From contig CM049320.1 of NCBI GenBank assembly GCA_026874595.1, positions 9,179,464 to 9,243,463 on the forward strand: DNA of 64,000 bases, given 5' to 3'. Within the stretch, counting starts at the first letter, position 1. Each line of letters starts with the position of its first letter. Under the pieces are notes generated by a model. The model was not told the DNA's origin and did not search any database. It was given only the letters and a program-made list of their open reading frames with translations. Shown here piece after piece: positions 3,046 to 57,935 of this stretch. A program made the translations under genes and the position numbers. The DNA is from Sipunculus nudus (taxonomy: Eukaryota; Annelida; Sipuncula; Golfingiida; Sipunculidae).

Positions 3046-5795
3046 GTCTGAGTCTGACCAAGAAGACCAATCTGTCTGAATGTTATGGTTCAAGTGGTCG
3101 TATAGGTAAAGTCGTCGTTCAGAGCAAAAAAAGAAGAAAGTATCCGACAAATCCATACACACATATTTTTTAAAGTAGACTTTCCATTTAAATCAACATA
3201 TATTCAACTGATATTTGTTTTCTGGAACCTAACAGGAAATGTGATGAGTGAAAAGCTCATTTATTTTACGTAAAACCCTCCAAACTAAAACAACAGAACT
3301 CATAGGCGGGGGAACATGACTTAAGGCCGCAGCCTAAGAGCTGTGCGATTGTTCATTGTTAATTGGAAGGTGCGTCCCTGTGTGTCTTGTTACTCCGTAT
3401 TTTTTACTTCGTCTTTGCATACACTCTTAAGAAGGTTTTGAGGTCGTACGGTTAACGGCAGCAGGATGGATCCAGCATTTAGGGAAAGGGATCCAACCCA
3501 GGAGGACCTATGCTTAAGCAAAAGAGGTTACCAGGTCCGAAAAAAGGGGATCCAATTTGTCTGATTTTCATGGTTCAAATGGTTGTATAGGTTAAGTCGT
3601 CGTTTAGAGCAAAAAAGGTAGAAAGTATCCCACACACCCATACACACATCATTTTTTCGTAGATTTTCCATTTTAAGTAACATATTATCAACTGATATGT
3701 GTTTTTTTTAATCTAACAGGAAATGTGATGAATTTAAACAAAAGAAAAATGAGGAAACAAGAGAAAGGCTCATTTATTTTACGTACAACCCTCCAAACTA
3801 ACACAATAGATGGCTTGACGTCACCATTTCAACCCAACTAACTTAGACAAATGTTTCGTATTTGAATAGATTTGGACAGTTGGTGTGGATCGGTAAGCGC
3901 TGTTATTCCTATTACGGACGGGGATTTACTGGCATTGTAAGAAATGTGAAAAATGGAAAAGTACATTTTGAAATCAACGTCAAGATTCACCGTTGAAAAA
4001 AGAAGGGCAAATGCCATATATTTTAATCTGTTCTACGCAAACGATGTGAATATGATTTTCAAGGAGACGAAATGAAGGTTATTCAAAATTCTGAAAATAT
4101 ATTCCTATCTATCAAAATACCGATCAAAGGCCAAATGTTGTAGTCTTTTGTACCCGCACAGAACTCATAGGCGGGGGAACATGACTTAAGGCCGCAGCCT
4201 AAGAGCTGTGCGATTGTTCATTGTTAATAGGAAGGTGCGTCCCTGTGTGTCTTGTTACTCCGTATTTTTTACTTCGTCTTTGCATACACTCTTAAGAAGG
4301 TTTTGAGGTCGTACAGTTAAGGGCAGCAGGATGGATCCAGCATTTAGGGAAAGGGATCCAACCCAGGAGGACCTATGCTTAAGCAAAAGAGGTTACCAGG
4401 TCCGAAAAAAGGGGATCCAATTTGTCTGATTTTCATGGTTCAAATGGTTGTATAGGTTAAGTCGTCGTTTAGAGCAAAAAAGGAAGAAAGTATCCCACAC
4501 ACCCATACACACATCATTTTTTCGTAGATTTTCCATTTTAAGTAACATATTATCAACTGATATGTGTTTTTTTTAATCTAACAGGAAATGTGATGAATTT
4601 AAACAAAAGAAAAATGAGGAAACAAGAGAAAGGCTCATTTATTTTACGTACAACCCTCCAAACTAACACAATAGATGGCTTGACGTCACCATTTCAACCC
4701 AACAAACTTAGACAAATGTTTCGTATTTGAATAGATTTGGACAGTTGGTGTGGATCGGTAAGCGCTGTTATTCCTATTACGGACGGGGATTTACTGGCAT
4801 TGTAAGAAATGTGAAAAGTACATTTTGAAATCAACGTCAAAATTCACCTGTTGAAAAAGGAAAGGCAAATACCATGTATTTTAATCTGTTCTACACAAAC
4901 GATTTGAATATGATTTTCAAGAAAGCAAAATTAAGGTAATTAAAATTCGTGGGAATATATTCCTGTCTATCAAAATACCGATCAAAGGCCGAACGCCGTA
5001 GTCTTTTGGTAAAGCACAGGACTATTAAGCGGGGGAACATGACTTAAGTTCGCAGCTTAAGAGCTGTGCGATTGTTTACGGTTAATTGGAAGGTGCGTCC
5101 CTGTGTGTCTTGTTACTCCGTATTTTTTACTTCGTCTTTGCATACACTCTTAAGGTTTTGAGGTCGTACGGGTTAGGGAAGCATAGATGGATCTATCATT
5201 TAGGGAAAAGGGGTCCAACCAAGAAGGACTATTGTAAAAGCAAAAGAGGTTACCGGGTCCGAAAAAGGGGATCCAATCTGTCTGAAATTTAAGGTTCAGG
5301 TGGTCGTATTGCTAAAGTCGTTGGTTAGAGGGGAAAAAAGAAGAAGATAGTATCGAAAACACCCATAAAAACGTCATTTTTCCTTAAACTTTCCTTTTCA
5401 ATCACCATATTATCAACTGATCTGTGTTTTCTTGAACCTTAAAGGAAATGTGATGAATTATTAAAAAAATGGAGGAAACAAGAGAAAGACTCTTTTTTTT
5501 ACGTAGAACCCTCGAAACTAACCCTAAGGATCGCTTGACGTCACCATTTCAACACAATTAACTTAAGCCAAGTTTTCCGTATTTGAATAGTTTTAGACAG
5601 TTGATGTGTGTCGTTAAGCGCTGTTAATCCTATTACGGAAAAGGATTTACTGGTATTGGAAGAAATGAGAAAAAAGGAAAAGTACATTTTGACATCAACG
5701 TCAAGATTCTCCTGTTGAAAAAGGAAAGGCAAATGCCATGTATTTTAGTCTGTCCTACACAAACGATTTGAATACGATTTTCAAGGAAACTTTTG
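3046..5795 (+). repeat. Tandem array, about 865-bp unit, near three full copies
   Basis: A unit starting at CAGAACTCATAGGCGGG recurs at 3294, 4159 and (diverged) 5017, giving periods of 865 and 858 bp. A truncated copy occupies 3046-3293. Copies one and two are almost identical by eye; the third has small indels and ends near 5795. Each copy contains a perfect TGACGTCA octamer (3816, 4681, 5536) and a TTATTTTACGTA-type stretch. A 68-residue frame at 5086-5292 exists only in copy three, so it is not a conserved gene. Recent unequal crossing-over explains the similarity. Function is unknown; satellite-like or part of a larger mobile element are both possible. Confidence 0.85.
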
Positions 5796-7789: not shown

Positions 7790-9229
7790 ATAATGTCCGT
7801 ACATGTTATATATGGTAATGACTATAAACAAATATCCTTTTAACTTGTCTGTTGACTGTTTTAAGTGTTTTATTATTTTATTATTACGGCCATATTGGAA
7901 TGAAACGAGACGCGGAATTATTCCGGACTCTAATGGTTAAACTCGTTTACATTCAAATCTTTACCAGTTAGGGTTATGGGGATGGCTGGGATTACTTGGA
8001 ACAACCGGCTAACTTCAAAATCGAAATTCATGAAAACCGAAAAAAACTTCTTTTCTTGATTGAACCTACACATACTTACTAGATGTTATTTATTTCATGA
8101 TGTCCGTATCACAAAAGATACGTGCATATTATTTTCCTTGAAACAACTCTAATTTAACATGTTTCAACAGCCTGTAGCCGCTGTATTTATAGCTACACCA
8201 TCTGTGGATTTAGAAGCCTAAGCGCACTGTGGTGGAAAGAACATTTATGCACAGTTCTTAAACAGACTCGTACTCTTGTTGGTATGATCCTGCAAAGAGA
8301 GTTGCGAGGATCAGTTTTTTTTTCAAATGTACCTTTTTAAATACAATATATTCGCCTAAACCTTTTGTTTCAATGCGTCGGTTTAGGATTCTTTGAACGT
8401 TTCCCCAACTATCTATTACCTTGACCTCAAGAACATATATTTTTCAAGTACGAAGTGTATATTGCGGTATTATTAATTAAGGGTTCTTTTTGGTAAGATT
8501 GGTATAATTATACACATTGAAAGTGGTCTTTCCTGCATCTAGTTAGAGGCTGATATATAAAATCTAAGGCAATCATCAGCTGTTGACACGGTTTACCTCA
8601 GTTTCATGAGTTTCATCACGATTACTAAACAAATCTACAGAAATATATTATTTTTTTACATACACTGATGGAAAATGCGAATAATGCCTAAAATGAGCAC
8701 AAAATTGGTTTGAAAGAATATGATTAAATCGTGAAATAATATTTAATGTAGATCTTTTAGGTAAATTGGTGATATTTTAGTTGAAATCATAAACTTTGAA
8801 AAAATGAAGAACAATTGGCATTGAAACGTTTTAAACTATATATAGTGATCACCTGATTTCCTTGATGTAGTTCATATGTTGAAATGTGTCTCTTATTTCA
8901 AAGCTACTCTATTGACAATACTAACAAACAAAAATCTAACCACATAAAATATATCAGTTTCAAAACTATTTGTATAAAAATGTGACCTGTAAATTGTATA
9001 TCTGGAAAGATATCGTTTTACAAGAAATGAAGGGAGATTTACCGAAACATTCACTGGTGTCATCTATTATTATTAAAAAAGTACCTGATGCAAAAATCAA
9101 GATTTCTCTACATTTAAAATGGCAAAGTTAGAAAATAATTTAATTTTCCCAGAAATACGTAACCATGGTACAATCAAAATAGACCAATTTTGTAGTGAGG
9201 GAAATAGCCAAAGCGAACCAAATAAACTA
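7790..9229 (+). repeat. Dispersed repeat R1, copy A (left part)
   Basis: The order of blocks here matches 26970-27890 and 19895-20880: GCCATATTGGAA, an ACTCGTTT.CATTCAAA block, TTTGAACGTTTCC, CAATCATCAGCTGTTGA, then a CCATGGTA...TTTGTAGTGAG block. The repeat is broken at about 9229 (…AATAAACTA) by the LINE that follows, and its 3' end resumes at about 14466. No protein is recognised; family identity is unknown. Confidence 0.75.
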
Positions 9230-9580
9230 TAAGGTGTGAGGTCAGTGGACCCTACTGCACCAGGTCCCTCTAGAGCCAGGTCTATTGTCAATGTGTTTGA
9301 AGGAACCTTAATAATGTGTTTGTAATTTCAAACTCCACTGCCTGGCAGGTTAAAACATTGTGAACTATGATTTAATATTTAATGTTGAGATTTTGTTTGT
9401 TCTGAAGTGGTTTTGAATCTATGCCTTCCCAAGTCCTGATACAACATTCATTTATTTTGTATTTGTTATAAAAACAGTAACTCAGGCTAATGTATTTTCT
9501 CTTCTCCTTCGTCCCCTAGTACCCCACATAAATATCAGAGGTTTAATTTGTCAGATAAAAAGGGAAAATCAGTTGAAAAA

Positions 9581-10321
9581 ATGGCTCTTACTACAGACAC
9601 ATTAAGAAAAATGAGTTGGAGGAAAAAAATAGTAAGACAAATCACAGAAAGATTTGATTCAACAGTTCAGCTGTTAGAAAGTAAAGTCATGACACTGGAA
9701 AATGAAAATGAAGGCTTGAAAAGTGACATTAAAAGGTTATCAGATCAGGTTGCTCACTTAGAAGCGGTGACAAGCATGTCTTGTACAGAAGCTAGAGAGG
9801 CTCAGAGGAGGTCAGTTGAACTTGAACAGTACTGTAGAAAAGGAAATATTAGGATTTTTGGTATTGGAGAGAGGGATCTAGATGAAATAGGAGTAGAAAA
9901 TTGCAAAGAAATTGTGCAACAGTTTTGCAAAGAAAAGCTTAGGGTTGACATTGAAAGAAAAGATATTGATGCTGCCCATAGTGTTGGTAAATATACTGGA
10001 AATAATGCTGCTCCTGGAAGGGGGCCCAGGGCAATTATGGTTAAATTTCTGAGAAGAGAAGTCAAAGAAATAGTGATGAAGGAAAGGAGAAAATGCAAAG
10101 TATCAAGAGTAGAAATAGTGGATGATTTTTGTAAAGAACTTCATGAACTGTACAACAGAGTAAAAAATGACCAAAGAATAAAAGAGGCATGGATTTGGGA
10201 TGGGAAGGTTTTCATAAAGGATTTAAGAGGAGGGATTAAACAGATCAGACACGGACAATCATTGGAACAGCTAATTGCAATTGCTTCATATTGTAAATAT
10301 AATAATAAATATAATAATTAA
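9581..10321 (+). CDS. LINE ORF1p-like protein (L1 ORF1 / Transposase_22-like)
   Basis: ORF1 of the LINE: an RNA-binding chaperone-type protein expected to coat element RNA in cytoplasmic particles. The first ATG gives 246 residues; an in-frame TTG lies 11 codons upstream. Residues about 25-85 form a Leu/Glu/Lys-rich coiled coil. It is followed by the motif LEQYCRKGNIRIFGI, typical of the RRM-like domain of L1-type ORF1 proteins, then an IDAAHSVG block and a C-terminal part with EAWIWDGKVFIKD, matching the conserved end of these proteins. It is the only intact element frame in the window. It stands about 200 bp before ORF2. Invertebrate CR1-like ORF1 proteins share this layout, so the clade assignment rests more on ORF2. 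Confidence 0.85.
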   Translation: MALTTDTLRKMSWRKKIVRQITERFDSTVQLLESKVMTLENENEGLKSDIKRLSDQVAHLEAVTSMSCTEAREAQRRSVELEQYCRKGNIRIFGIGERDLDEIGVENCKEIVQQFCKEKLRVDIERKDIDAAHSVGKYTGNNAAPGRGPRAIMVKFLRREVKEIVMKERRKCKVSRVEIVDDFCKELHELYNRVKNDQRIKEAWIWDGKVFIKDLRGGIKQIRHGQSLEQLIAIASYCKYNNKYNN

Positions 10322-10518
10322 TATAAAGCCAGGCAAGGAAAATGACCATATGGTTTTATACTCATGTATATTGTATTTTGTATTTGTGATCATTGATATG
10401 AAGACCTGTAAGCTTAATGTAACACTGATGATTATGATGCATGATGATACAAATAAGAAATCTTCATATTTTAACTACCCTATAGATTCAAAACTAATTA
10501 TTTTTATGGCAGATAATA

Positions 10519-13500
10519 TTTAATTCCAAGTCCCCTCATTAAACATCAGGGGAATAAAAAAAAATATATGAAGAGAAGACAAATCTTAAATTGGTTAGTT
10601 AAACACAATCGTTATAATGGTGTAAGCTTTTTACAAGAATGCAACTGTACAAAACAGGACGAGAATACATGGTCTAATCAGTGGCGAGGAGTAACATATT
10701 TTTTTCACATGGAAATTCAAAGTCTTGTGGTGTATGAACATTAATTGGCAAGAATCTGGAATTCAGAGAAATTAATAAATCTATAGAACTTTCTGGGAGG
10801 GATATCTTTGTGGATTGTGAAATTAATGGTTTGCACTGTCTGCTTGACAAGCCCCAAACCATGAAACTCAGCAAGTCGAATTTTATGAAATGATCCTTAC
10901 TGAACTGTCAAAACTGACTATGGAAACAGATGTACAGATTATATGGGGTGGTGACTTTAATGTTCATCTTGCAGAACTTGACGCAGATGGAGGAAGGACC
11001 ACTGTTAAACATTATCCTGTCAATAAAATAACTTCCATCATGGAAGCTTTAAACCTGTGTGATATATGCGATTACTTGGCGATCAAATACTCCTTTAATT
11101 CAGAGACGTCTATATTATTTTTCAATAACAAACACTTTGCAGTGTTTTGTTACAAAATGTGATATAATTCCATCTGTTAGCACAGACCCTTCAGCAGTAT
11201 TAATATATGTAAACTTCAGCAAAGATTACAAAATGGGACCTTCTCACTGGTGTATGAACAATGGATTATTAAATGATACTGAATATTTGAAATTTGGTTA
11301 AGGAAAACATCAGTGAATGGAAACAGGAAATGAATACTGAAAAGGCAAAGACAAAATGGGAATATCTAAAATATAAAATTAGAGAGTTCACGATACAGTA
11401 TAGTAAATCAAAGGCTAAACGACTCAGAGAAAATAAAGTCTGGTTGAAAAAAAAGTGGCTAATCTTGAACAAGAATTAAGATGTTCTGATACACCTGAAA
11501 CGCAGGATTTATACCACACATCAAAGCAAACGTTACAGGAACATTATGACAACATCACACAAAGATTTATAATCAGGTCAAGGGCTCAGTGGCTGCAACA
11601 GGAAGAAAAGGGGTCTAGGTATTTTTTTTAACCTTGAGAAAAGAAAAAAAAAATAACTCTGTAAGAAGACAATTATATTTTAATGGTGAATATATTAAAG
11701 ATTCCAAAGATATTATGAGATTTATTAAAAACACATTTGAAGACAAATATAGGAAAAAAGTGTCATGTGATGGAACTGAGTTGCAAGATTTTTTTCGAAT
11801 ACTCCAAGCGCCAATGAAAACAATTTAATGAGATGGAAGCTGAGTCATGTGGGGCAAACATCACAAAAAGTGAGGTGTATACATGTTTAAAATCTATGAA
11901 AAATAACAAAACTCCAGGAAATGACGGTTTGACTAAAGAATTCTATATAGCATTATCTGATGATCTTGGACAGAGTTAAACTGAATGTGTAAATGAAAAC
12001 TATGATACTGGATAGGTGACATCAACACAAAAACCAGCTCTTGTAAAATTAATTCCCAGGCCAGGAAATAATTTAAACCATTTGAATGCCTAGGGACCGA
12101 TCAGCTTGTTAAATGTTGATGTAGAAATAATAAGCAAGGTTTTAGTAAAGCTCATTGAAAAATATCTGCAGAAAGTTATACAGCCTGATCAGTATGCATT
12201 TATAAAAGGTCGATATATCGCAGAACCTATAATATTGATTTGGGATATAATGTACTATACTGCTGAAGAGAAACTCCCAGGGATTATGTTTGCAACTGAT
12301 TTAGAATCTGCTTTTGACAGTGTAGATCATGATTTTATTTTGGCAGCTTTAAAATACTTTGGTTTCAGTCATTCATTTCTTAGATGGGTATAAAATATTA
12401 CATTAAGATATACAGAGTTCAGTTATGAATAACGGATTCACAACAGGTTATTTTCAGTTGGAAAGAGGAACTAGACAGGGTGACCCACTGGTAGCATAAT
12501 TATTTATAATTTTTATTGAAATATTGGCTATAATGATAAGACAAGATAAAGATATTCATGGAATACAGATTGGATATACCACTGTCAAAATGTTTGCAGA
12601 TGACACAACTGTTTTAGTCAAGGATGTTGATTCATTAAGCAAGGTTCTTGAAGTGCTGCAAATGTGTGAATATTATTCTTCACTTAAAATTAATCGTACA
12701 AAGTCAGAGGCAACTTGTATTGGGTCGATAAAAGATAAGGTATTGGAGAATTTTAATCTGAAATGGATCAACCTTACAGTGTCAACCATGAAAATACTTG
12801 GGATTTATTTTTCATACGATGATGATTTGGTGTACAAAAACAATTTCAAGAGGGTTGAACACAACGTAGCAACCACATTAAACATGTGGAAAGTAGAACA
12901 CTATCAATATATGGCACAGCAGAGATGGTCCGCTCATTGGCAATTACAAAACTTCTTTATGTAACTAATATGTTAGTATCACCAAATACTACAGTAAAGA
13001 ATTTAAAAAGACTACTCTGTGACTTTATTTGGAGGGCTAAGAGGCCTAAAGTAAAATATGCAACCATTATTGGACAGTATGAGAAAGGGGGGGGGGGGGG
13101 GAGGGGCCAATTTTCAAGACATTGAATGCAAAATAAAGACACAAAAAATAGTGTGGAGTGTGCATTTTGTGTTCAGAAGAATCTGCCAGTAGTAAAATTT
13201 TGAATTTCAGATTAAGGAAGATAGGCGGATTAAACTGTATAAGGGGAAACTTTGATATGAATGTGTTACCTAAAGGATTGCCAAGATTTTATTAGAAATG
13301 TTAAGAGGAATGGGCTTCATATGTATCAGTTTTGCCTGAATCGACAGAAGATGTCATATATCAAAGCTTGTGGAATAATAAATATATAAAGAATAATAAC
13401 ACACCTCTATACAACAAACATTATGTCAGAAGCAAATTATATTATATAAAAGACCTGGTAAATTATGATGGAAAGTGGAAGCCATGGGAAAAAATACGGG

Positions 13501-14274
13501 AGAAGAATATATGTATGAATCACATTGATTACATGTTTTGGATGGCATTAAAACGGGCTATTCCAAAAACTTGGAGAGACAGGTTTACAGGGTATGAAGA
13601 AGTACATGATGAAGGAAGTGAAGCTGACAGTGTTGTAACTGTGAATGGTTTAGAGAAATTGGATAAATTAAATGCTAGATATATTTAAGACTTTGGTGGA
13701 GAAAATATGGGAAACTCCTACAGCTCAGAAAGTATGGGATAACAAACACCAAGAAAATAGTATCGAGGTGAAATGGGAACATGTTTATAGTGGAATTTAT
13801 AAAAGTACCTTAGACACACATCTTAGAGAGTTTCAATATAAAATATTAAATAACTACAATCCTCCAAAGGATCTGTTGTATAAGTGGAATTTAAAGGAAA
13901 CCCCTCAATGGTCATTTTGTTTTGAGCAAAGAGAAAAGATATTACATACTTTTCTTGACTGTATGGTTGCTAAGAACTTTTACCTAAAAATAACATCCTG
14001 GTTACAGAAGTATAATGTGAATTTACCACCAATATCACCATCTTTAATCATATATGGCATGATACCAGTTGGTGAAGATAACATGTTAATTAACCAAATT
14101 TTGCTGCTGTACAAATGTCTTGTATAAAGAAGAGAGGGCTATCATTCTGCTTTGTTTGCTGTATTTAAAAGTAAATTAATGGATATTGAAAATGTTGAAA
14201 GATACATAAAAAAAAGGAATTCCAAATACGCATTACAAAAATGGGGTGAATTGAAAAATATGAGTAAAAACTGA
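10519..14274 (+). pseudogene. LINE ORF2: endonuclease-reverse transcriptase, broken
   Basis: This would nick target DNA and prime reverse transcription there. Starting near 10535 (SLNIRGI, then FLQEC) an APE-type endonuclease can be read, with its GGDFNVH motif at about 10947-10967. The RT follows: PGNDGL near 11915, a RPISLLNVD-like block near 12100, ATDLESAFDSVDHDFI near 12293-12340, RGTRQGDP near 12466-12489, and the catalytic FADD at 12593-12604. LGIYFSYDD near 12800 is typical of L1-like RTs. The C-terminal FQYKIL...W...CF...E..LHTFLDC block (about 13830-13970) resembles the zf-RVT domain. A final frame ends at TGA 14272-14274. At least ten stops or frameshifts (for example after the endonuclease, in the RT, and a 15-G run at 13087-13101) inactivate it. 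Confidence 0.85.
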
Positions 14275-18839: not shown

Positions 18840-19207
18840 ATACATGACAATTAGGTAAAGTTTTTTTTTCTCATGACCGAAGGCTTCTTGCTGGAGTATA
18901 ACAGTGAATAAGCTCTTGCAGGTAAGGAGGAGCTACGTTATTTAATGTCTTATACACAAGCATTAACATTTGAATTTAAAAGGTTATCCAGTTAGATACA
19001 CAAAGCCTGACTTTCCTGAGAGTTTGAGGCTTATTAAAACAGATGATCAGGTAACTCACACAAAACCAGATGAGGATGCAAAATATTATTCAGGCACCTA
19101 TTCTTAATAATGATGAAGATTTCAGCTTAATAGATGCATTTAAAAAGAAAAGCGGAATATTTTCAAAATACTTACCAGTATATTCTATTTGACATGATAA
19201 GAATAAA
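18840..19207 (+). repeat. Dispersed repeat R1, copy B (5' segment)
   Basis: Matches 26610-26940: AAGCTCTTGCAGGTAA/AAGCTCTTGTAGGTAA, CAAAACCAGATGA.GATGCAA, TTGACATGATAAG. At 19208 the match stops and a different repeat (R3) begins, so copy B is interrupted or rearranged. Confidence 0.7.
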
Positions 19208-19894
19208 ACTCAATCCACAATATTCCGCAAAGCTCCTTGATTTGGCCATGTCAGAGCACTGTACCAAAGTCTTGCAAATAAATTAACCTGTAATTCTGGA
19301 TTATTTTTTTAATCGTTTTAAAGATTAGGAATAACCATGTCACTGGATTTAATTTGAAAAGTTAACTAGGTAACTTACCCATAGTATATTATAGTCACAA
19401 TAATTATTTGAAGTACACGTACTGTAAAACGGGCTAAACTCTTTACAGAGACTGACCGGATCTGAACAAAATTAAGCCAGCAAGGGTGACTATATGGTTA
19501 GATATGTCTGATAGGACATTTTAGTCAACGCCCCATTTTATGCACTTAGGAAGGATTATTTGCCCCACATGATATGTATATGTTAAAAATTTTAATAATC
19601 TGTAATATTTCACTTTAATTAGACCCAGTCATAATACGGGAAATGTTTATATTCTTTGTTAAAATAGATGCAATGCATTAACTATACAGAAAAAAGTATA
19701 CAAAATCATATCATATCAATAAAAACGTTCTCACTGCTGTGAGTAATATAGGCGGTGTTTTCTTGGACCCAAATACTTATAACCTGAGGTAAAAAGCACT
19801 ACCTGTAGCTATATGGAGTAGTTATTTCACCCTAACATGCTTATAAAATGCAGCAAAACTTTAAATGCTACTATTTCCACTGAACTGATAACAC
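19208..19894 (+). repeat. Repeat R3, copy 1 (about 690 bp)
   Basis: Nearly identical to 22870-23556: both run from TATTCCGCAAAGCTCCTTGA to ACTGAACTGATAACAC with few mismatches. It sits where copy C of R1 has unrelated sequence. No coding capacity, no clear terminal inverted repeats. A 63-codon frame starting at 19837 spans its right edge and is not a gene. Confidence 0.85.
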
Positions 19895-20950
19895 GTACTC
19901 TTGTGAGTGTGAGTGTGATCCCGCATAGTGAGTTGCAAGGATCACCCTTTAAAGACATTGTATCTGCCTCAACCGTTTGTTCCAATGCGTGGGTCAGGGA
20001 TTCTTTGAACGTTTCCCCAACTATCTAGTACCTCGATCTCAAGAACCTAGAATTTCCAAGTACAAAGTGTAGTTTGCTCTATTATAAAAAATGGCATTTT
20101 GGTAGGATTGGTATAATATACATATTGATAGTGTTTTCCTGCATCCCATTAGAGACTGATATGTAGAAACTAAGGCGATCTTCGGCTGTTGACACGGTTA
20201 ACGTGTTAAACGTAAACATTTTCTCAGTTTCATGAAGATCAGGATAACTAAAAAAATGTACTTAGAATATAGTTTGTGACTTCCCCCTACATGAAGCATT
20301 CATAGAAAGATTCCATTTTAACAAACATTGATGAAAAATGCGAAGAATGCATAAAAGCATGTAAAAAAAGAGCATAAAATTGGTTAAAAAAAACATGATT
20401 AAATGGTGAAATAATATTCAAGGTGGAGATTCTCCTACCTTTATTATATGTTTAAGTTGAAAACATCAATTTTGTTAGTAAATGAAGAAAAACAGGTGGT
20501 GAAACATCTTAAACTATACATAGTGATCAGCACTTTATATTCGAGGACTGTAACAATGCTGCTTTTCTTGATAAAGTGCATTTGTTGACATGTGTGTGTT
20601 ATCTTAAAACTACCTAGATGACAATGCTATAAAAAATCCAAATCACATAAAACATATCAGTTTCAAAACTATTAGTATATAACTTCTCTAAGACTTCTCT
20701 AGGTTTAAAAATGGCAAAATAAGTAAAAAAAATAAATTTAATGATTTTTCCCCGAAAATACGTTACCATGGTAGCAGCAGAAATAGCCAGGTTTGTAGTG
20801 AGAGGAACAGCCAAAGAGTAGGCAAACGAACTACAGTTGAAGTGGCTATGATTAATTTAGCAAGATATAAGGAAAACAACCCGTATACATGATTCTCCGT
20901 GACCTATACATTTTTCTTTGACCGATTGTGACCAAAACAATAGACTACGT
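19895..20950 (+). repeat. Dispersed repeat R1, copy B (3' segment)
   Basis: Shares with copy A (8260-9229 plus 14466-14530) the blocks TTCTTTGAACGTTTCCCCAA, CTATCTA, TTGACACGGTT, ACGTTACCATGGTA, TTTGTAGTGAG and the uninterrupted AACTACAGTTGAAG. This copy is the reference that reveals the LINE insertion in copy A. Ends with GTGACCAAAACAATAG-like sequence also found near 48070. Confidence 0.75.
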
Positions 20951-22843: not shown

Positions 22844-22869
22844 CTAAGGGGGCGCCGTAGGTAGATAAA

Positions 22870-23556
22870 ACCCAATCCTCCATATTCCGCAAAGCTCCTT
22901 GATTTGGCCCTGTCAGGGCACTGTGCCAAAGTCTGGCAAATAAATTGACCTGTAATTCTGGATTATTTTTTTAATCGTTTTAAAGATTAGGAATAACCAT
23001 GTCACTGGATTCAATTTAAAAAGTTAACCAGGTAACTAACCCATAGTATCTTATAGTCACAATAATTATTTGAAGTACACGTACTGTGTAAAAGGGGCTA
23101 GACTCTTCACAGAGACTGACCGGATCTGAACAAAATTAAGCCAGCAAGGGTGACTATATGGTTAGATATATCTGATAGGACATTATAGTCAACGCCCCAT
23201 TTTATGCACTTAGGAAGGATTATTTGCCCCACTTGATATGTATATGTTAACAATTTTAATAATCTGTAATATTTCACTTTAATTAGACCCAGTCATAATG
23301 AGGGATATGTTTATATTCTTTGTTTAAATGGATGCAATGCATTAACTATACAGAAAAAAGTATACAAAATCTTATCATATTAATAAAACGTTATCACTGA
23401 TGTGAGCAATATAGGCGGTGTATTCTTGGACCCAAATACTTATAAACTGAGGTAAAAAGCACTACCTGTAGCTATATGGAGTAGTTATTTCCCCCCACAT
23501 GCTTATAAAATGCAGCAAAACTTTAAATGCTACTATTTCCACTGAACTGATAACAC
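22870..23556 (+). repeat. Repeat R3, copy 2 (about 690 bp)
   Basis: Near-identical partner of 19208-19894, offset by 3662 bp at the left end. The flanks differ completely, so this is a mobile or duplicated unit rather than part of a longer duplication. The family is not recognised. Confidence 0.85.
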
Positions 23557-25084: not shown

Positions 25085-25478
25085 TTTTATATATTTTTGT
25101 TGGAGGTCACCGCCTCCATTTTTTAATGCTAGCTTAACTTATTATATGTACATCTGCACATTTCCATTCTGGTTTCGGACTACGGGACAGGGCAGTATCA
25201 CACGCTTCCTCTCATTTGATAGCCTGGCGTTAACCAGGCCCGATGACTACTGCACCTGCGGGCCCTGGGTTGGTAATCATACCACCGAGGACCTCCGAAA
25301 GGCGCACTCGTTTGTGAGTGAAACACGGCCGTTGGACACGACTTTCTCATTAAGCCTGCAGAGCGCTCATCCTGGGTGGGGGCCGACCGTGAAAAACCTA
25401 ACCGCCTCAGCTGAGGTTCGAACTCACGATCTCCCGGCTTTGAGTCCTGCGCTCTACCCCTGAGCCACAGAAGCCGGT
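25085..25478 (-). mobile_element. tRNA-derived SINE, with target-site duplication
   Basis: On the minus strand the element starts at 25478 with a tRNA-like head: TGGCTCAGGGGTAGAGC (A box) and GAGTTCGAACCTC (B box), correctly spaced for RNA polymerase III. A 300-bp body follows and ends in an A-rich tail (complement of the TTTTTTATATATTTTTG at 25083-25099). It is flanked by TACTATCCTT (25075-25084) and TACTATTCTT (25479-25488), a 10-bp duplication with one mismatch. The 105-codon plus-strand frame 25146-25463 is a chance frame inside it. Without the body this could be mistaken for a tRNA gene. Confidence 0.88.
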
Positions 25479-26599: not shown

Positions 26600-27890
26600 A
26601 TATGAAAATTTTAGCTGATGACCAGAAGCTTCTTGATGGAGCGTAACAGTGAAAAAGCTCTTGTAGGTAAAGAAGGAGCTAAATTATTTATTGCTTTTAT
26701 ACAATAATTACCATTTAATTTTGAAAAAAAACTAAACTTTCCCTTCCTGGAAGTCTGGGGCCTGTAACAAAATATAACAGGAACCTCATACAAAACCAGA
26801 TGATGATGCAAAAGATGATTCAGACACTATATTCTTAATAATTATAAAGGTTTAAACTTTAAGGATTCTTTTGACAAGAAAAGTGAAATATTCTCAAACT
26901 ACTCAGCAGAATCTTATAATTGACATGATAAGCATTTGACATGAACAAGTAAAATTGATTAATGGAACGTATATGCAATAATGCCTTTACATGTTATAGA
27001 TGGAAATGACTGTAAAAACCTATTCTCTAAGCTTGTCTATCTGCTTATATCTTTATCCATTACAGTTTAAAGTATTTTTATGGTTTCGTACCCACGACAA
27101 ATATATCAGCTCAATTGAACGTTGATTTTACAGCTTTATTAAATTTATATTTTAGCGGCCATATTGGAAATAGCCCCCAGGTTGAGTTGTTCCAGACCCT
27201 TATGCAATTACTCGTTTCTATTCAAACCTGTACTAGTTAGTGTTTCTGGCTTGGGTTAGTGTGTTGCGAGGAATACCTTTCCTCTAAGATACATTCTAAA
27301 GATGTTATATCCGCCTAAAACCTTAGTTCCAATGCATCGGTTAAGGATTATTTGAACGTTTCCTACTAAGGCAATCATCAGCTGTTGAACACGGTTACGT
27401 TGTTTCAATTAAAAGTTTTGAACTCTCAGTTTCATAAAGTATAGCCAAGTTAGATCAGACATACTGAAAAAATCTACAACCAATACGATCAGGGACTTCC
27501 CTTTTCATGAAACATTCACATAAAAATTCCATTTTATAACACTGATGAAAAGAAACGAAGAATGCCCGAAAGCATGGAAAAGAGCTCAAAATTGGTTTAA
27601 ATAAACATAATTTAATGGTGAGATAATATTTAAGGTAGAGGTTCTCCTAACGTTTTGATCTATTTCAGTTGAAAAAAAATCAACTTGATAAAAAATGAAC
27701 AACCATTGGTATTGTAATATTTTAAACTAAATATATATTGACTAGCACTTTATTTTGTAGGACTGTAAAAAAACTGCTTTTCTAGATTAAATACCTGTAT
27801 TGACATGTGTATGTTATTTCAAAGCTACTTATTTGACAATTCTATCATAAAAAAACAAATCACATAATTTAAGGCTGCTCATCTTAACAT
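26600..27890 (+). repeat. Dispersed repeat R1, copy C
   Basis: Contains, without the R3 insertion, both the 5' segment seen at 18840-19207 and the 3' segment seen at 7790-9229: AAAACCAGATGATGATGCAA, ACATGTTATAGATGG, GCCATATTGGAA, TTTGAACGTTTCCTA, CAATCATCAGCTGTTGA. It gives the best full-length outline of R1, at least 1.3 kb. No reading frame is shared between copies. Confidence 0.75.
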
Positions 27891-29099
27891 TTCAAATTTT
27901 CACACCAGGTGGTACCAGCGACTCCCTCTGGCCCGTGGACTATAATGTGTTCTATTTACTGTTGACTCGTCAGCTTCACAGACCACCGAACGCGCATTCC
28001 AAACTGCCAACTGTAATGCCCCTGCCGCCATTTACGGCAAGGATATGTATCTTCATCATTCGATGAATAAAGTTGGGAGATTTGACAAAAATTACAATAT
28101 AGTCACCGAATGTAACAAATGTTTAACAGATATTGTCATTTAGTATAACCAGCTACTTTTACAAAAACTTTGTGCCTGTTTTTTTTCTTTCTATGCTATT
28201 TACAAAGGATGCTGTTCACGTTATAAGACTTAAATATTTAGACTGGTGAGAGGTAGAACCAGATTCATAAAGTTGAAATATGTTGACTTATATAACATTA
28301 TGAAATTCGCATACTATATTTGGATACAACTCATTTAGCAATATGTCAATTGAGGACAAGGTTTAACTCAAACAGAAGCTTTTGGTCAAATAACACATTA
28401 AAAACATTATAATGTGCAATGTGAAATGAATGATGTAGATTGTAGAAGGATAACCAAAGTTACATGTTTAATAATATCAAATATATGATTAAGATATATA
28501 TTATGCTTAGGTGAGTTACAAAGGGTAGAATATAACCACAACTATTTCAACTTAATTTGCCATCCATATTCTTTAATTAGAGGCAAATTGTAATGGCTGG
28601 TAGTGTTGAGTAGTTAACTGTTAATAAGATAGTACAGAAGTGCAGTCTGGTGGGGAACCGAAAAAATGTGTTACAGTTTTCTAAAATATTTAAAGTGTGT
28701 AATCTTTTCAGAAATACCTATAATAACTAACTTAACACAATGACTGATTATATGGCAATATTAATTTTTTTTTCAGTTATAGTGTACATGGGACCCAGAA
28801 GGGAAGGGGGTGGGGGGGGGGGTGGGGGTGGGAGGCAGGGTCTCAGGGGATATTTGTGACCGGCTGTACCTTTTTAGGCCAAACAATTAAATATGTTTTA
28901 AGTTTCTGAGGCGAGAATTATCCCTAAAATAAAGCCAGATGGACGCTCATGAACAAATAAATGATAAAATTGTTCAATGGTATGATGTAAAAGTATTAAT
29001 TTTTTGTGTGAGTAAGGTATATGAAATAAATGAAATGTCATTTAAATCTTTGCAACCTTAAAACAATAATATTTCTGTTTATTTCAAATAAAAAGACTG
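27891..29099. other. No gene; G-rich tract
   Basis: 27985-28060 resembles 49440-49540 (TGCC.ACTGTAATGCCCCTG versus an ACTATAATGCCCCTG block). A G-rich, purine-biased run lies at 28803-28850. No supported frame. Confidence 0.4.
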
Positions 29100-29339
29100 A
29101 TTTTCCAGCCACTTTGTAATTTCAATCATTTTATAAGGTGCCTGAGTGAACCAGTCAATTATTAAATTGACTGAAAAGTTCAAGCAATTTACAAATTGAC
29201 TGATTTAACATAGTGACTGTTACATAAATACCTGGAAAAAGAACGATTTATTGGCCTTTTATTGAGACAAGAGTAAAAATGAATGCAGACGTGGGTGATA
29301 CCTTAAGGGGATGTTGGACATTGCGAATGTAATCATGAA

Positions 29340-29579
29340 CATTCTCAAAATTAAAGGCATACTGACTTTGCTAACCTTCCGCTCAGCCAAGGAAGTTCTG
29401 TTTTGGCTACGGGTCAGTTAAGGTTATTAAGCTGATTAAAGAATTAAATTTTAATTTGATATCGTTTCAATGCGCTAATTATATATGTAAAATTTACAAA
29501 TTCTTATCACTGACCTGATCTGCTACAAACGACACACTACGCTGCCAATGTGTTTCCGAATTCTGCGGAACAATAAATG

Positions 29580-29640
<61 letters not shown>

Positions 29641-29645
29641 CTACT

Positions 29646-29703
<58 letters not shown>

Positions 29704-30080
29704 CACATATAGATTGGCATTGCAATAAAAGATTTTATCACTAAATATACTTGCCTTCTAATATTATCTGATGCGATTGCCAACCATTTCGTAGCGTTGG
29801 GTCAGTATTGAGTATCATTATTAAACACGATACAATCGGTTTCTCTGTAAAGAAAGATATGTTATCAATGTTATGGGCCTTGAGATCTTTTGAGATTTTG
29901 ACTAGATCTTCTCTAGGACATAATATATAAAATGAGGTGCCTGTTGCTCAGGGATATTGTATGGTTACACACGTAATGAAAACAGGGTTAAATACTTTAA
30001 TACTGTAAAACCATTTGCATTTATAACATACATAAAATGCCAGAATTATTAGATCATTTGTGTTTCAGTTATCATTTTTG
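29340..30080 (+). repeat. Duplicated segment R4, copy 2, with long (AT)n
   Basis: Partner of 21960-22750. The microsatellite is expanded and split here (29583-29633 and 29648-29696). The blocks after it (CCAACCATTTCGTAG, CCTGTTGCTCAGGGATAT, ATGGTTACACAC) keep the same order as in copy 1. A short match upstream (29100-29230) pairs with 6870-7010. Confidence 0.75.
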
Positions 30081-51842: not shown

Positions 51843-52242
51843 TGGAAGTCTTAGCAGGCTGCAGAGGGGCCGCCATGAATCGCACGCGGAAGCAGCTATT
51901 TGCTTCCCCTAAAAATCGGGAGGGGGTAAAATTTTTGGTAGCATCGCATTGACTGTCGTCAGGAGGAGTGGACATGAGAGCGGACTGCCACAGAGGGGCC
52001 CCATGAATCTCACGCGGAAATAGCAGCTATTTGTTACCAAAAAAATCGGGAGGGGGTAAAATTTTTGGTAGCATCGCATTGACTGTCGTCAGGAGGAGTG
52101 GACATGAGAGCGGACTGCCACAGAAGGGCCCCATGAATCTCACGCGGAAATAGCAGCTATTTGTTACCAACAAAAAAAATCGGGAGGGGGTAAATTTTTT
52201 TGTAGCATCGCATTTAAGACTGTCGCCAGGGGGAGTGGACAT
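51843..52242 (+). repeat. Tandem repeat, 129/130-bp unit, three copies
   Basis: CAGAGGGGCC or CAGAAGGGCC starts at 51862, 51991 and 52121. Each unit contains CATGAATCTCACGCGGAAA, AGCAGCTATTTG, AAATCGGGAGGGGGTAAA and TAGCATCGCATT...GACTGTCG. Copies two and three are nearly identical; the first is more diverged. Because 130 is not a multiple of three, the minus-strand frames that cross it do not encode a regular peptide repeat. Confidence 0.9.
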
Positions 52243-52249
52243 GTGCCTC

Positions 52250-53429: not shown

Positions 53430-54123
53430 AAGTGGGCTGGACTGTATGTGACAAAATGTGACAAAGATTATTGGGGTGTTCCTCTAACAGAAACAGCGGA
53501 AAAAACTCAGCATTTTTATTTCCTGATGGGTTATTTGAATAAAATGTCATTCCATTCCGAATGAAATACGCAGGGGCAACATCCCAACGCCTCATGAATA
53601 TTTGTATAAACAATCTCGAAGGTGTTGAGGCATATATAAATGGACTTATTGTGTATAGTGATACTTGGGACGAACACTTTCAAAGATTAGAGAAATTCTT
53701 TCAAAGATTGGCGGAGGATAATCTAACAATTAACTTGGCAAAGAGAAATTTCGGGAAAGAAAAGGTCTTTTATTTAGGTCATGTCATAGGACAAGGTAAT
53801 GTAGAACCAGTCCATGCCAAATTCGATGCTATATTGAATTTTCAAAGGACCTCAAAAAAAGGGTTTACAAAGGTGTCTAGGCGTGACCGGGTACTATAGA
53901 AAGTTCTGTAAGAATTTCGCTGAGATAACTGCCCCACTTACAAATCTAATAAAGAAAAAAGAGGCATTTCTTTGGACAGATGAAAGCGAAGCAGCATTTG
54001 AAATATTGAAGTCAATGATTACCAATACTCCTGTACTGAAAGCACCTCACTTAGACAAAGATTTTAAATTATTTGTGATGCTAATGAGCAAGCTGCTTGT
54101 GCTATTTTGATACAATTTTACAT
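53430..54123 (+). pseudogene. Gypsy RT and start of RNase H, active site lost
   Basis: Reading from about 53450: KCDKDYWGVPLTETAEKT, a frameshift, then PFRMKYAGATSQRLMN where PFG is expected, and GVEAYINGLIVYSD at 53621-53662. The RT catalytic YIDD is YING (53633-53644), so both metal-binding Asp are gone. YLGHVIGQGNVEPV, then after another frameshift MTGYYRKFCKNFAEI, FLWTDESEAAFEILK and FKLFV, with RNase H starting in a shifted frame (DANEQAACAILIQ near 54080-54116). The order is classic Ty3/Gypsy. Coding is cut here by the TIR element and resumes at 57600. It is a different Gypsy lineage from the one at 36-38 kb. Confidence 0.85.
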
Positions 54124-54599
54124 CAGCCAGAGGGTTCATCGGTACCAAACAGGTGACAATTGCTATCAATTTTTTTTAAAGGTGTATGTGTGTAGATAAT
54201 AAAAATGTCTGATAGCAGTATGAAAGTGGTAGCTTTCTGTGAAATATCAGCCTGTTTTTAAATGTACTTGCACCGAAATTGCAATTTTGCGTTACATACT
54301 GTTATATATATATATTATTTAGTTATAACATTTTATATAATATAAAAGAACCTTCGGCTGAGAGAGGGCTATGTTGTCTGCTGAAATATTTCCATGCAAA
54401 TATTTCCTACAAAAACTTAACATATACAATCAAGGCAAGAGCAGTAAATGTACCTACAACATTTTGCTTAGGTTGCACCATAAGTAAATGATAGATATTG
54501 CAGTTTGCCTTTGTGTCAGAACTAACTGTGAATGTGAAGCAGAGCTGTAAGTTATTCAGTCTGAGTTGCCTCTGTTAATACTGTTAACATTTCCTACAG

Positions 54600-54804
54600 G
54601 AGAGAGATTCCTAAAAAAATACCACTTTCTGTAAGGGAAACTAGATGTTCATTTGAACCGTGGTTTAACCATGAATATATACCAGTTTGCTATATTGCCA
54701 GTAAGTGCAATGACTCATCCTGTTCCCGTTTTATGTTAATACAAAGTCCAGTAAATGCTAGTGATAAGCCCAAATTAATTAAATCAGTTGTTGAACAAAT
54801 CTAA
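54600..54804 (+). other. Coding-like stretch inside the TIR element
   Basis: A polypyrimidine tract ending CATTTCCTACAG (54589-54600) is followed by a 66-codon open stretch to TAA at about 54804, reading PKKIPLSVRETRCSFEPWFN, then YIPVCYIASKCNDSSCSRF and KPKLIKSVVEQI. Upstream, 54492-54549 reads a Cys-rich piece ending at AGCT followed by GTAAGT, a strong 5' splice site. Together they resemble two exons. No family recognised. Base use is less AT-biased than the flanks. Confidence 0.35.
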
Positions 54805-56186
54805 TTTAATTCTAACCATCTAAATCCGTCTCAAACAAAACCCTAGCAGTCCAGTGTCAACTAACTTTTCCCGATTGGAAGACATACATTGTTCGCCTTT
54901 GGTATGTACTTGCACCATAGAGTGCCATTAGATTCCTTTTGTTTTAATCTTTAAAATGCAGTTTTTTTACTAAACGGTCAGAGCAAAATGTGGCCCTGTC
55001 ATTTCCCAGGTTTAATGGAGATCATGATAATCACTGACCGTTGAACTGGCCTAACAATTATAATGTCAATGGGGTTTATGGTTTTGCCCTTAAAAGAATA
55101 TCATCTCCCGCTTACTGAATAAAATTGTAACTGTTGGATCACAAAATGTAGATACATATTCCAAATGTTTTGTTTTCATATTATTTTCTTTTATTTAAAC
55201 GGTTCACTAGAAACACACATGATAATAAATATGAAAATAAATGATTTCACATTCTTCTGGTAATTTCTATTTCAATTTCTTGCAAGTGCTTACTATCTTT
55301 TGACTTCATTTGGCAAGGTAGCCGGGTTGAAATAACTAAAATAATATTATAGACTTATAAAAGCCCCGGTGATAATCCAAAATGAAAAATGACGAAATGA
55401 TTTTCATATTCCACTCGATATTATCTTTCAAACCATTTAAAAAAATGAACTCACAGATCTGATGTTTGTCTGTCAGAAGGCGATTGCATATTTATGTGAT
55501 CATGATTTCATAAACTGATATTGCATATTTTCCCTTACAACCTAACATTGAATATTACTGAGATAGTTTAATTTTTTTTGGATTTGAAATTTCTAAATAC
55601 ACATGGACCTAATTGTGAAATAATCAATGTGACAAACAATTCTTTAAAGAGTCTTTATCACACAGCGAACATTCACCCTGAACAGTGAAACTTTACATAA
55701 GTAAACAAATTCTCTATGTTAAATACATTATAATCTGTTTCCTCTTCTGTTAATTTTAAATGTTCAACTTTACTAAGTGCCCCATTTGTCATAACGCTCA
55801 GCTGAATCTATACTGGTCAGTGATCTAATTATTATCTACTAAGGAGACTTTAAGGGAACCTGTATACACAATTTCTTACATCCCAGGTAAAGCGATTAAT
55901 AGTTGTGCCTTGGTATACACTGATAATTGCAGTCTCTCATTCAAAAAAGAAACTTAAAGGTCTTATCATTATCCTACTATTTGCATTGTTTATAATCGCG
56001 AATAATGATGGAACAATAGAGAGTGAAACTAAGAAATAACATTTCAGCTCTAGTCCATCATAATCGGTCAGCTACATAGGCCTATAGATTAAATTTTCTT
56101 ATCATTCATAAAAAAACACCTAAAAATGTACCGACTTTGCTCACAGAAGAAAGGTAAAATAAATGGTGCCATCTGTAGTTTATATA

Positions 56187-56432
56187 CAGGGGCGTAACCA
56201 GACCTGACCGTCCGGGGGGCAAGACTCAACAGGTTTCCCGATCCTGTACTTCTTTTTTCTTCTTCCTTCCCTTTCTGCTTTTTCTTTTTCTTTTCTTCCC
56301 CTTTTCTTCATCCTTCCCTTCCTCTCCTTCCCTCTTTCCCCTCTTTTCTTATTTTCCTTTCTTGTTTCCCTCCCAGATCTGTTTGTCCCCTTCCCATTTT
56401 TGCGGGTGGGGGGGCAGGGGGTTACGCCACTG
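56187..56432. mobile_element. hAT-type MITE, 246 bp, with 8-bp target duplication
   Basis: Ends CAGGGGCGTAACC (left) and CAGTGGCGTAACC (right, minus strand) are inverted repeats. TTTATATA directly flanks both sides (56179-56186 and 56433-56440), the 8-bp duplication typical of hAT transposons. The interior is a pyrimidine-rich tract (TTCTTTT..., about 56250-56400) without coding capacity, so it depended on a transposase supplied elsewhere. It is nested in the 3.5-kb TIR element. Confidence 0.88.
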
Positions 56433-56962
56433 TTTATATACCCGTAAAAGTCACATAATCAATGTTAGGTAAAGCACATTACAAATTGTTGGTAAAAACA
56501 AATATCAAATACAACAATAAGCGAATATAAGCGTAACTGAGCTAAGGTAACGCCATCCTTCACATAAAAGCTAATTTTTCTTTTATTTCCTGTTTTGAAT
56601 AGGAAAAACTGAAAAAAAGATCAGCATAAGTGGCGATACTTGCAACTAACGCTGAATTTCCAGTCATGGAATCAATAAGCTGGGTACTGGTCAAAATATT
56701 ATGAATACAAACACTTGTGATCAGCAAAGGTAAAATAAAGTAAAGACACCAGTTATACAAGAGTTATATTTTTTTCCTTTCACAAGTTAGGACAACCTAT
56801 AGCTTACAAACAAAATACCAGTCCAATAGAATAATCAATATTATCACAGAACTTGGAGTTGACAGTTGCGGCAGTTCCTGCTGTTTTTGCTGATCGACGA
56901 AACGTCATATCTGTTGATGTATTATATACATGGAGTATTTTACTCAAAGGGTAAGGCATAAG

Positions 56963-57139
56963 GGGGGGGGGGAGGGTCCAGGAGGTCCGAACCCCTCTTT
57001 TCCAGTTGCCATCAATTTGTATATGGTTTCAAATTAACTTTTGTGTCCTGGACCCCCCATCTTTCCGGACCTAGGGACCTTTTTCTAGGTTTTTGCCATT
57101 ATTCCTGGCGTGGACCCCTCCTGGATCTGCCCGTGTGTG
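56963..57139. mobile_element. Short hAT-like MITE, 177 bp
   Basis: Flanked by GGCATAAG on both sides (56955-56962, 57140-57147). The ends share TCCAGGAGG in inverted orientation (left GGGTCCAGGAGG; right end on the minus strand GGGCAGATCCAGGAGGGG). The left end has been altered by a poly-G run. Interior non-coding. Second insertion into the same TIR element. Confidence 0.65.
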
Positions 57140-57599
57140 GGCATAAGAAAGTATAACTGTAGGTGCATAAACCATTTGATCATAAATGATATATCATTGA
57201 AAAGATTACTTTGCTGGGTATAATTTTGGCGTATAAAGGTGTATGCAGTAAATTTATATAACCACTCCTTTGTCGTTTTTCGTAGGGGTGGGTGTAACTA
57301 TAAGAATGTATAGTATATACAAAGGGGTCATAAATGTCATGTCATACTGATTTAGGCTATCATTTGAGTTTTGCATTTTGAGTAGTATGGGCCTTATAAC
57401 CACTCTGAAGTCGATGTCATTGAAAGAAAAAAAAAAATTACGTCATCCGAAATAAAACATCCATCTTTTCACTGAAAGCTACCACTACCATACTGCTATC
57501 AGGCATTTTTATTACCTACACATGTATACCTATCAAGCACACATGGTGAAAATTTGTCACAAAAATGGTACCAATGATCCAAATTTTGGGGTCTGGCTG

Positions 57600-57935
57600 A
57601 AGTACTACAAGAAGATGAAAAAGGGATTGAACATCCAGTCTGTTATTTCTAGAGAAATTCAAAGACTATCAGAGGAACTATTCGACCATTGAAAAATAAA
57701 TATTGGTACTTATCTAAGCGTTACAATACTTTGAAGTTTAAGTAAGATCAGTTTCACATACGTTAAAGATTTATACCGATCACATTCCATTGGTGTTCTT
57801 GAACAAAACGATAAACAAGAACAGACGATTGTTCAATTTGAGTCTGCTCTTACAAGAGTATGATATCAATGTGAAACACATTGGAGGCAGGTATAGTGTC
57901 ATAGCTGATAAATTGTCCAGATGGTATTAATTGAT
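57600..57935 (+). pseudogene. Gypsy RNase H, continuation after the TIR element
   Basis: VLQEDEKGIEHPVCYFSREI (57606-57665) continues the RNase H broken at 54123. Then, after stops, KISFTYVKDLYRSHSIGVLE, NDKQEQTIVQFESAL, YQCETHW-type and VIADKLSRW-like blocks, the end of RNase H before integrase. Stops every 20-40 codons. Integrase is not found downstream. Confidence 0.75.

Follow-up and report, generated by a model that had tools for sequence, protein, structure and literature searches.

The segment at 54116..57607 (+ strand, 3492 bp) is, with high confidence, a copy of a family of non-autonomous cut-and-paste DNA transposons with terminal inverted repeats (TIRs) and a unit length of ∼4.05 kb. 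Throughout, the window is the whole 64,000-nucleotide stretch of Sipunculus nudus DNA that was analysed (C15:9179464-9243463). As a genomic parasite the element is ordinary: a large non-coding family lodged in a dead retrotransposon. Its ends and its interior are common to copies elsewhere in the genome and it is flanked by a 3-bp duplication. Everything that places a family among the non-autonomous TIR DNA transposons (class II) was observed, namely inverted terminal repeats, a duplication of fixed length, dispersed copies and no transposase of its own. The family is now bounded by its ends, its duplication length, its target preference and its majority length, which is what the repeat library of the host needs. 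Past annotation the interest is modest; the site pattern and the duplication length are Harbinger-like, the termini are not.

The element had been proposed in an earlier note from a broken domain in the raw sequence, with bounds at 54124..57599. The insertion is real and the reading came to within 8 bp of it: comparison with the genome copies puts the ends at 54116 and 57607, so that each end had been set 8 bp short. The target-site duplication CAA stands on the + strand at 54113..54115 on the left and at 57608..57610 on the right, as seen by comparison of the flanks. The left TIR occupies 54116..54266 (+ strand) and the right TIR, which ends in ...GTACTA, 57450..57607 (− strand). Both were delimited from inverted matches within the window and from an end-to-end alignment of the majority sequence, both are imperfect and their inner edges are approximate. 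When the two ends of the family are aligned the TIRs measure ∼150 bp overall and the outer 16 bases differ at one position. The inner arms (54175-54244 versus 57467-57536) form an inverted match of 70 nt with 86% identity. An inverted self-alignment, which had been suggested as a check, returned these arms as the top inverted match within the 3.7-kb stretch 54000-57700 (E 1e-16); short self-palindromes aside, the runner-up in that stretch had an E-value of 0.37. Across the whole window two inverted pairs that are not AT runs exceed the arms in length, with 98 nt at 84% and 82 nt at 72% (among the 25 of 37 pairs listed).

Several other repeats and open frames were seen elsewhere in the window. 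At 3067-5788 there are ∼3 head-to-tail copies of a unit of ∼860 bp, parts of which are 99-100% alike, and at 51862-52243 a minisatellite with 2.9 copies of 130 bp. The blocks at 8335-8934, 19203-20640, 22865-23495 and 27294-29852 are dispersed within the window and repeated at 71-95%, possibly as another repeat family. Forward ORFs of 276, 154 and 151 aa at 9491-14127 look by eye like a decayed LINE. A tRNA-like match on the minus strand at 25403-25474 scored 31.2 bits, above the gathering score of 29, and is possibly a tRNA-derived repeat.

We searched the host genome (1.43 Gb) with the left end of the element. This gave 781 first-look candidates, 40 of which were scored (the window and 39 others), and the copy number from this query is hence a lower bound. 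All 39 other places were fetched and all match past the terminal repeat, over at least the first 834 bp of the majority sequence (with gaps in the case of L023). The match extends to consensus position 3054 or further in 38 of them; the exception is L022, which ends at 834. Both ends were in hand for 29 of the 39, and for the other 10 (L011, L015, L016, L020, L022, L026, L027, L038, L041 and L043) our automatic rule gave no right end. The majority sequence, computed from 13 rows with L009 excluded from the column counts, has a length of 4051 bp and a G+C content of 35%. Identity to it was 92-95% in 13 of the 14 aligned rows and 87% in L021. Two of the copies showed additional features. L023 (minus strand, C6:12330757-12338757) is broken by an insertion that is LINE-like and has two ORFs; the first (387 aa) seems by eye to have a NADAR-like domain, and the second has 351 aa. 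Of the family, L022 retains just the leftmost 834 bp (at 493-1321); on the other strand, at 3610-4239, it has a 209-aa ORF that is cupin-like by eye.

The 16-bp terminus TAGTACWTCAGCCAGA has 272 exact matches in the genome (129 forward and 143 reverse), compared to a single match for the control, the TAGTACWTCAGCCAGA pattern read backwards. Among the 100 of these 272 termini that were listed, 44 formed 22 facing pairs less than 15 kb apart and the other 56 were unpaired. The span was 3.3-4.5 kb for 18 of the 22 pairs; the remaining four spanned 834 bp, 6.3 kb, 9.7 kb and 10.2 kb. The 834-bp copy (L050) is a short derivative that retains consensus 1-158 and 3376-4051. A or T was the next base for 7 of the 272 termini (control: 1), one of them in L021, one in L049 and two in L051 and L052. 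The last two start out as ends of the family: in L052 the match extends for 486 bp, and in L051 for 230 bp before an AT run sets in. The copies L014 and L019 are 97-98% alike and yet differ in their flanks, as are L025 and L028, which shows that the family still moved after its divergence had started.

Among the 29 copies for which the fetched stretch contained both ends, 26 had a matching 3-bp duplication, compared to 52 of 812 mismatched flank pairs that served as the control. None of the 29 two-ended copies had a duplication of 2, 4, 5 or 6 bp, and no matching duplication was seen in L017, L025 and L030. The flanks of L050 are AGT and TGT, one base different and hence no exact match. A previous count with hand-placed ends, which included L027 and the window, had given a duplication in 13 of 15 cases. 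The sites were analysed on a set of 25 independent ones that have a duplication; the three copies lacking it and L033, whose flank duplicates the flank of L019, were excluded, and the window was represented by L009. The central base of the duplication was A or T at all 25 sites (p 1e-5), C made up 28 of the 75 bases at positions −4 to −6 (p 1e-4) and G 32 of the 75 bases at +4 to +6 (p 7e-6). As this pattern was noticed on the same 25 sites on which it was then tested, the p-values do not come from independent data. TTA and TAA each occurred 3 times among the 25 duplications and the remaining ones were other NWN triplets. The A/T centre together with the enrichment of C before and of G after the duplication points to a palindromic target preference, which would be roughly CCC-NWN-GGG.

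The mechanism we propose is that a DDE-type transposase encoded elsewhere would bind the ends of the element, excise it and insert it at staggered 3-bp cuts, at sites with a C-rich side, an NWN centre and a G-rich side. The likeliest single supplier may be a PIF/Harbinger-like transposase, a guess to which we would give somewhat less than an even chance, and the next candidates would be Academ, Zator or another group with 3-bp duplications, which is likewise a guess. All 150 scored matches to the Harbinger domain DDE_Tnp_4 (of 701 candidates) pass the cut-off of that domain family and many lie in long open frames; therefore a Harbinger source exists in the genome. The 100 termini listed (of 272) cover a range in which 70 of the 150 scored matches lie, the nearest of them 12.7 kb from a terminus. 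No autonomous copy with the ends of the family was found in the part of the genome that was looked at. The two widest end pairs, with termini 9.7 and 10.2 kb apart (L048 and L049), were considered as autonomous candidates and rejected, as each is a copy of the family into which other repeats have gone. In L048, pieces of the family are accompanied by two stretches of other DNA, of about 3.7 and 3.1 kb, in which no ORF exceeds 114 aa. L049 is likewise a copy of the family, and its ORFs of 231 and 176 aa are LINE-like by eye. The 3.7-kb stretch of L048 (182-3866) is a repeat array of satellite-like appearance which also occurs in L013, L011, L027 and L014.

We would give roughly even odds to a supplier outside Harbinger, from among the other groups that make 3-bp duplications, for instance Academ, Zator or a relative of EnSpm/CACTA; the anatomy and the movement of the family would otherwise be the same. 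Two points speak against such a supplier: the C..NWN..G site resembles those of PIF, and the CAC..GTG termini of EnSpm are absent from the family. The TAGTAC termini and the NWN sites differ from canonical PIF/Harbinger and speak for it. Furthermore, Zator gives 3-bp duplications (PMC10045372), the duplications in the EnSpm-Mirage-Chapaev-Transib clade measure 2 to 5 bp (PMC12730594) and an amplification of Academ is reported in bivalves (PMC10294476). Much less probable, with a small chance only, is that the ends of the family (TAGTAC..GTACTA, long TIRs and NWN within a C..G palindrome) belong to an undescribed transposase lineage that moves a non-coding passenger in trans.

In the majority sequence no ORF is longer than 96 aa, compared to a median of 92 aa after shuffling (5-95%: 71-124; simple shuffles). 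No Pfam match at E 1 was obtained for seven ORFs of the majority sequence or for six read-through frames of L017, and a search of five loci against Rfam found nothing at the gathering score. Since there is no ORF beyond chance and no match in Pfam or Rfam, the family is taken as non-autonomous, with a transposase presumably supplied from elsewhere. This agrees with the earlier note in that no transposase of a known type is evident. Its wording, non-autonomous or unusual autonomous, holds for the first half; the autonomous half was rejected, as nothing recognisable is encoded. A variant of it is that the family was once autonomous and has decayed, so that its transposase gene, which introns may have split, is past recognition. 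In favour of this, the unit has a uniform length of 4.05 kb, more than a typical MITE. Against it, 13 of the 14 rows are as close to the majority sequence as 92-95% and yet no ORF beyond chance is recovered, and the six frames of one copy (L017) show no domain; we regard this variant as very improbable.

The host of the insertion is a Gypsy retrotransposon. To the left of the element, at 53543..54115 (+ strand), lie a decayed Gypsy reverse transcriptase and the first part of the RNase H. The reverse transcriptase (RVT_1, 53543-53899, E 6.6e-08) exceeds the Pfam cut-off, and the RNase H match (RT_RNaseH_2, 53838-54110, E 8.1e-06) is below it with 26.2 bits versus a curated cut-off of 29.8. The RNase H continues, frameshifted, at 57611..57930 (+ strand), as seen from the reading of the frame and from a match to RT_RNaseH (57742-57930, E 1.9e-04) that covers profile positions 71-105 of 105 and again stays below the curated cut-off (22 bits versus 24.8). 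With one CAA removed, the junction gives an open frame of 23 codons, EQAACAILIQ followed by EDEKGIEHPVCYF, and then a stop. The pieces are readable only in several frames and the Gypsy copy is therefore decayed. The claim that the insertion splits a Gypsy RNase H whose frame resumes on the other side was thus right as to the frame, which continues across the CAA, with the qualification that the Gypsy copy was already frameshifted and that its RNase H matches are below the cut-offs. The left flank of the Gypsy copy has 40 scored places in the genome (of 62 candidates), and the same junction between Gypsy and element is present in a duplicate ∼94 kb away. Because the frame continues across the 3-bp duplication and the duplicate has the same junction, we read both pieces as what would be a single Gypsy copy split by a single insertion. 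That two unrelated repeats flank the segment by chance, or that the Gypsy pieces are separate insertions, both of which the earlier note had raised against itself, is scarcely credible and we rejected both: no point in favour of either was found, the ends and the interior travel together in the genome copies, 38 of 39 of which continue from the left end into the interior as far as consensus 3054 or further, and the exact 3-bp duplication lies within a continuous frame.

A single insertion into Gypsy being our preferred reading, the later history of the window copy can be followed by comparison with the duplicate. In an alignment to the majority sequence the window copy lacks consensus ∼227-957 (about 730 bp), with the deletion junction at 54339..54341 (+ strand). 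A MITE of 246 bp is nested at 56187..56432, identified from an inverted match within the window and from the comparison of copies. Its TIRs are CAGGGGCGTAACC and CAGTGGCGTAACC, its ends read CAG(G/T)GGCGTAACC, its core is pyrimidine-rich and it is flanked by the 8-bp duplication TTTATATA at 56179..56186 on the left and 56433..56440 on the right; from these 8-bp duplications and the CAG termini we take it to be hAT-like. The MITE is also in L009 and was seen in none of the other copies that retain that stretch. L009 likewise has the deletion, and among the 39 other copies it is the only one with both. It lies on the contig of the window, ∼94 kb upstream (G000:C15:9139379-9147379), and its Gypsy flanks match those of the window too. 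The K2P distance between the window and L009 was 0.037 for the element, 0.015 for the left flank (487 sites) and 0.043 for the right flank (3938 sites). L009 is a segmental duplicate of Gypsy plus element. A third place with the left Gypsy flank, at C15:9370264, is 91% alike. As the deletion and the MITE are common to the window and L009 only and the Gypsy flanks match, the events followed the order Gypsy, element, deletion and MITE (either order), segmental duplication: the element landed in the now-decayed Gypsy, lost ∼730 bp, took up the hAT-like MITE and was carried along by the segmental duplication. The outermost TAG of the left end reads TTT in the window copy; since L009 and most copies have TAG, this change probably postdates the duplication.

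To place the family we compared it with the known groups of DNA transposons. Academ duplications are 3 or 4 bp long. The target sites of PIF are A/T-centred and palindromic, C..NWN..G-like, and the A/T-centred palindromic site of our family resembles them; a literature search for this PIF-type motif gave no paper reporting it. EnSpm/CACTA shares 3-bp duplications in some of its members and differs by its CAC..GTG termini, which are absent from the family (PMC12730594). IS3EU has TA..TA termini as a likeness, but its usual duplication is 6 bp (PMC10045372) and 6-bp matches were found in 0 of 29 copies. By its termini EnSpm, and by its duplication length IS3EU, does not fit what the sequences of the family suggest. 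Zator can be likened by its 3-bp duplications alone (same source), and Academ as a DNA transposon group amplified in bivalves (PMC10294476), where the family here is known without a transposase. PIF/Harbinger shares the duplication of 3 bp (PMC12730594 and PMC2213677). The differences from it are threefold: the duplications of the family are NWN and those of canonical Harbinger TTA/TAA; the family ends are TAGTACWTCAGCCAG (TAGTAC..GTACTA) as opposed to GG.. or G-rich termini in Medicago, from which animal families may differ; and the TIRs measure ∼150 bp compared to 14-25 bp in autonomous elements (both from PMC2213677). Since neither the TTA/TAA duplication nor the Medicago type of terminus is found, we did not file the family under Harbinger.
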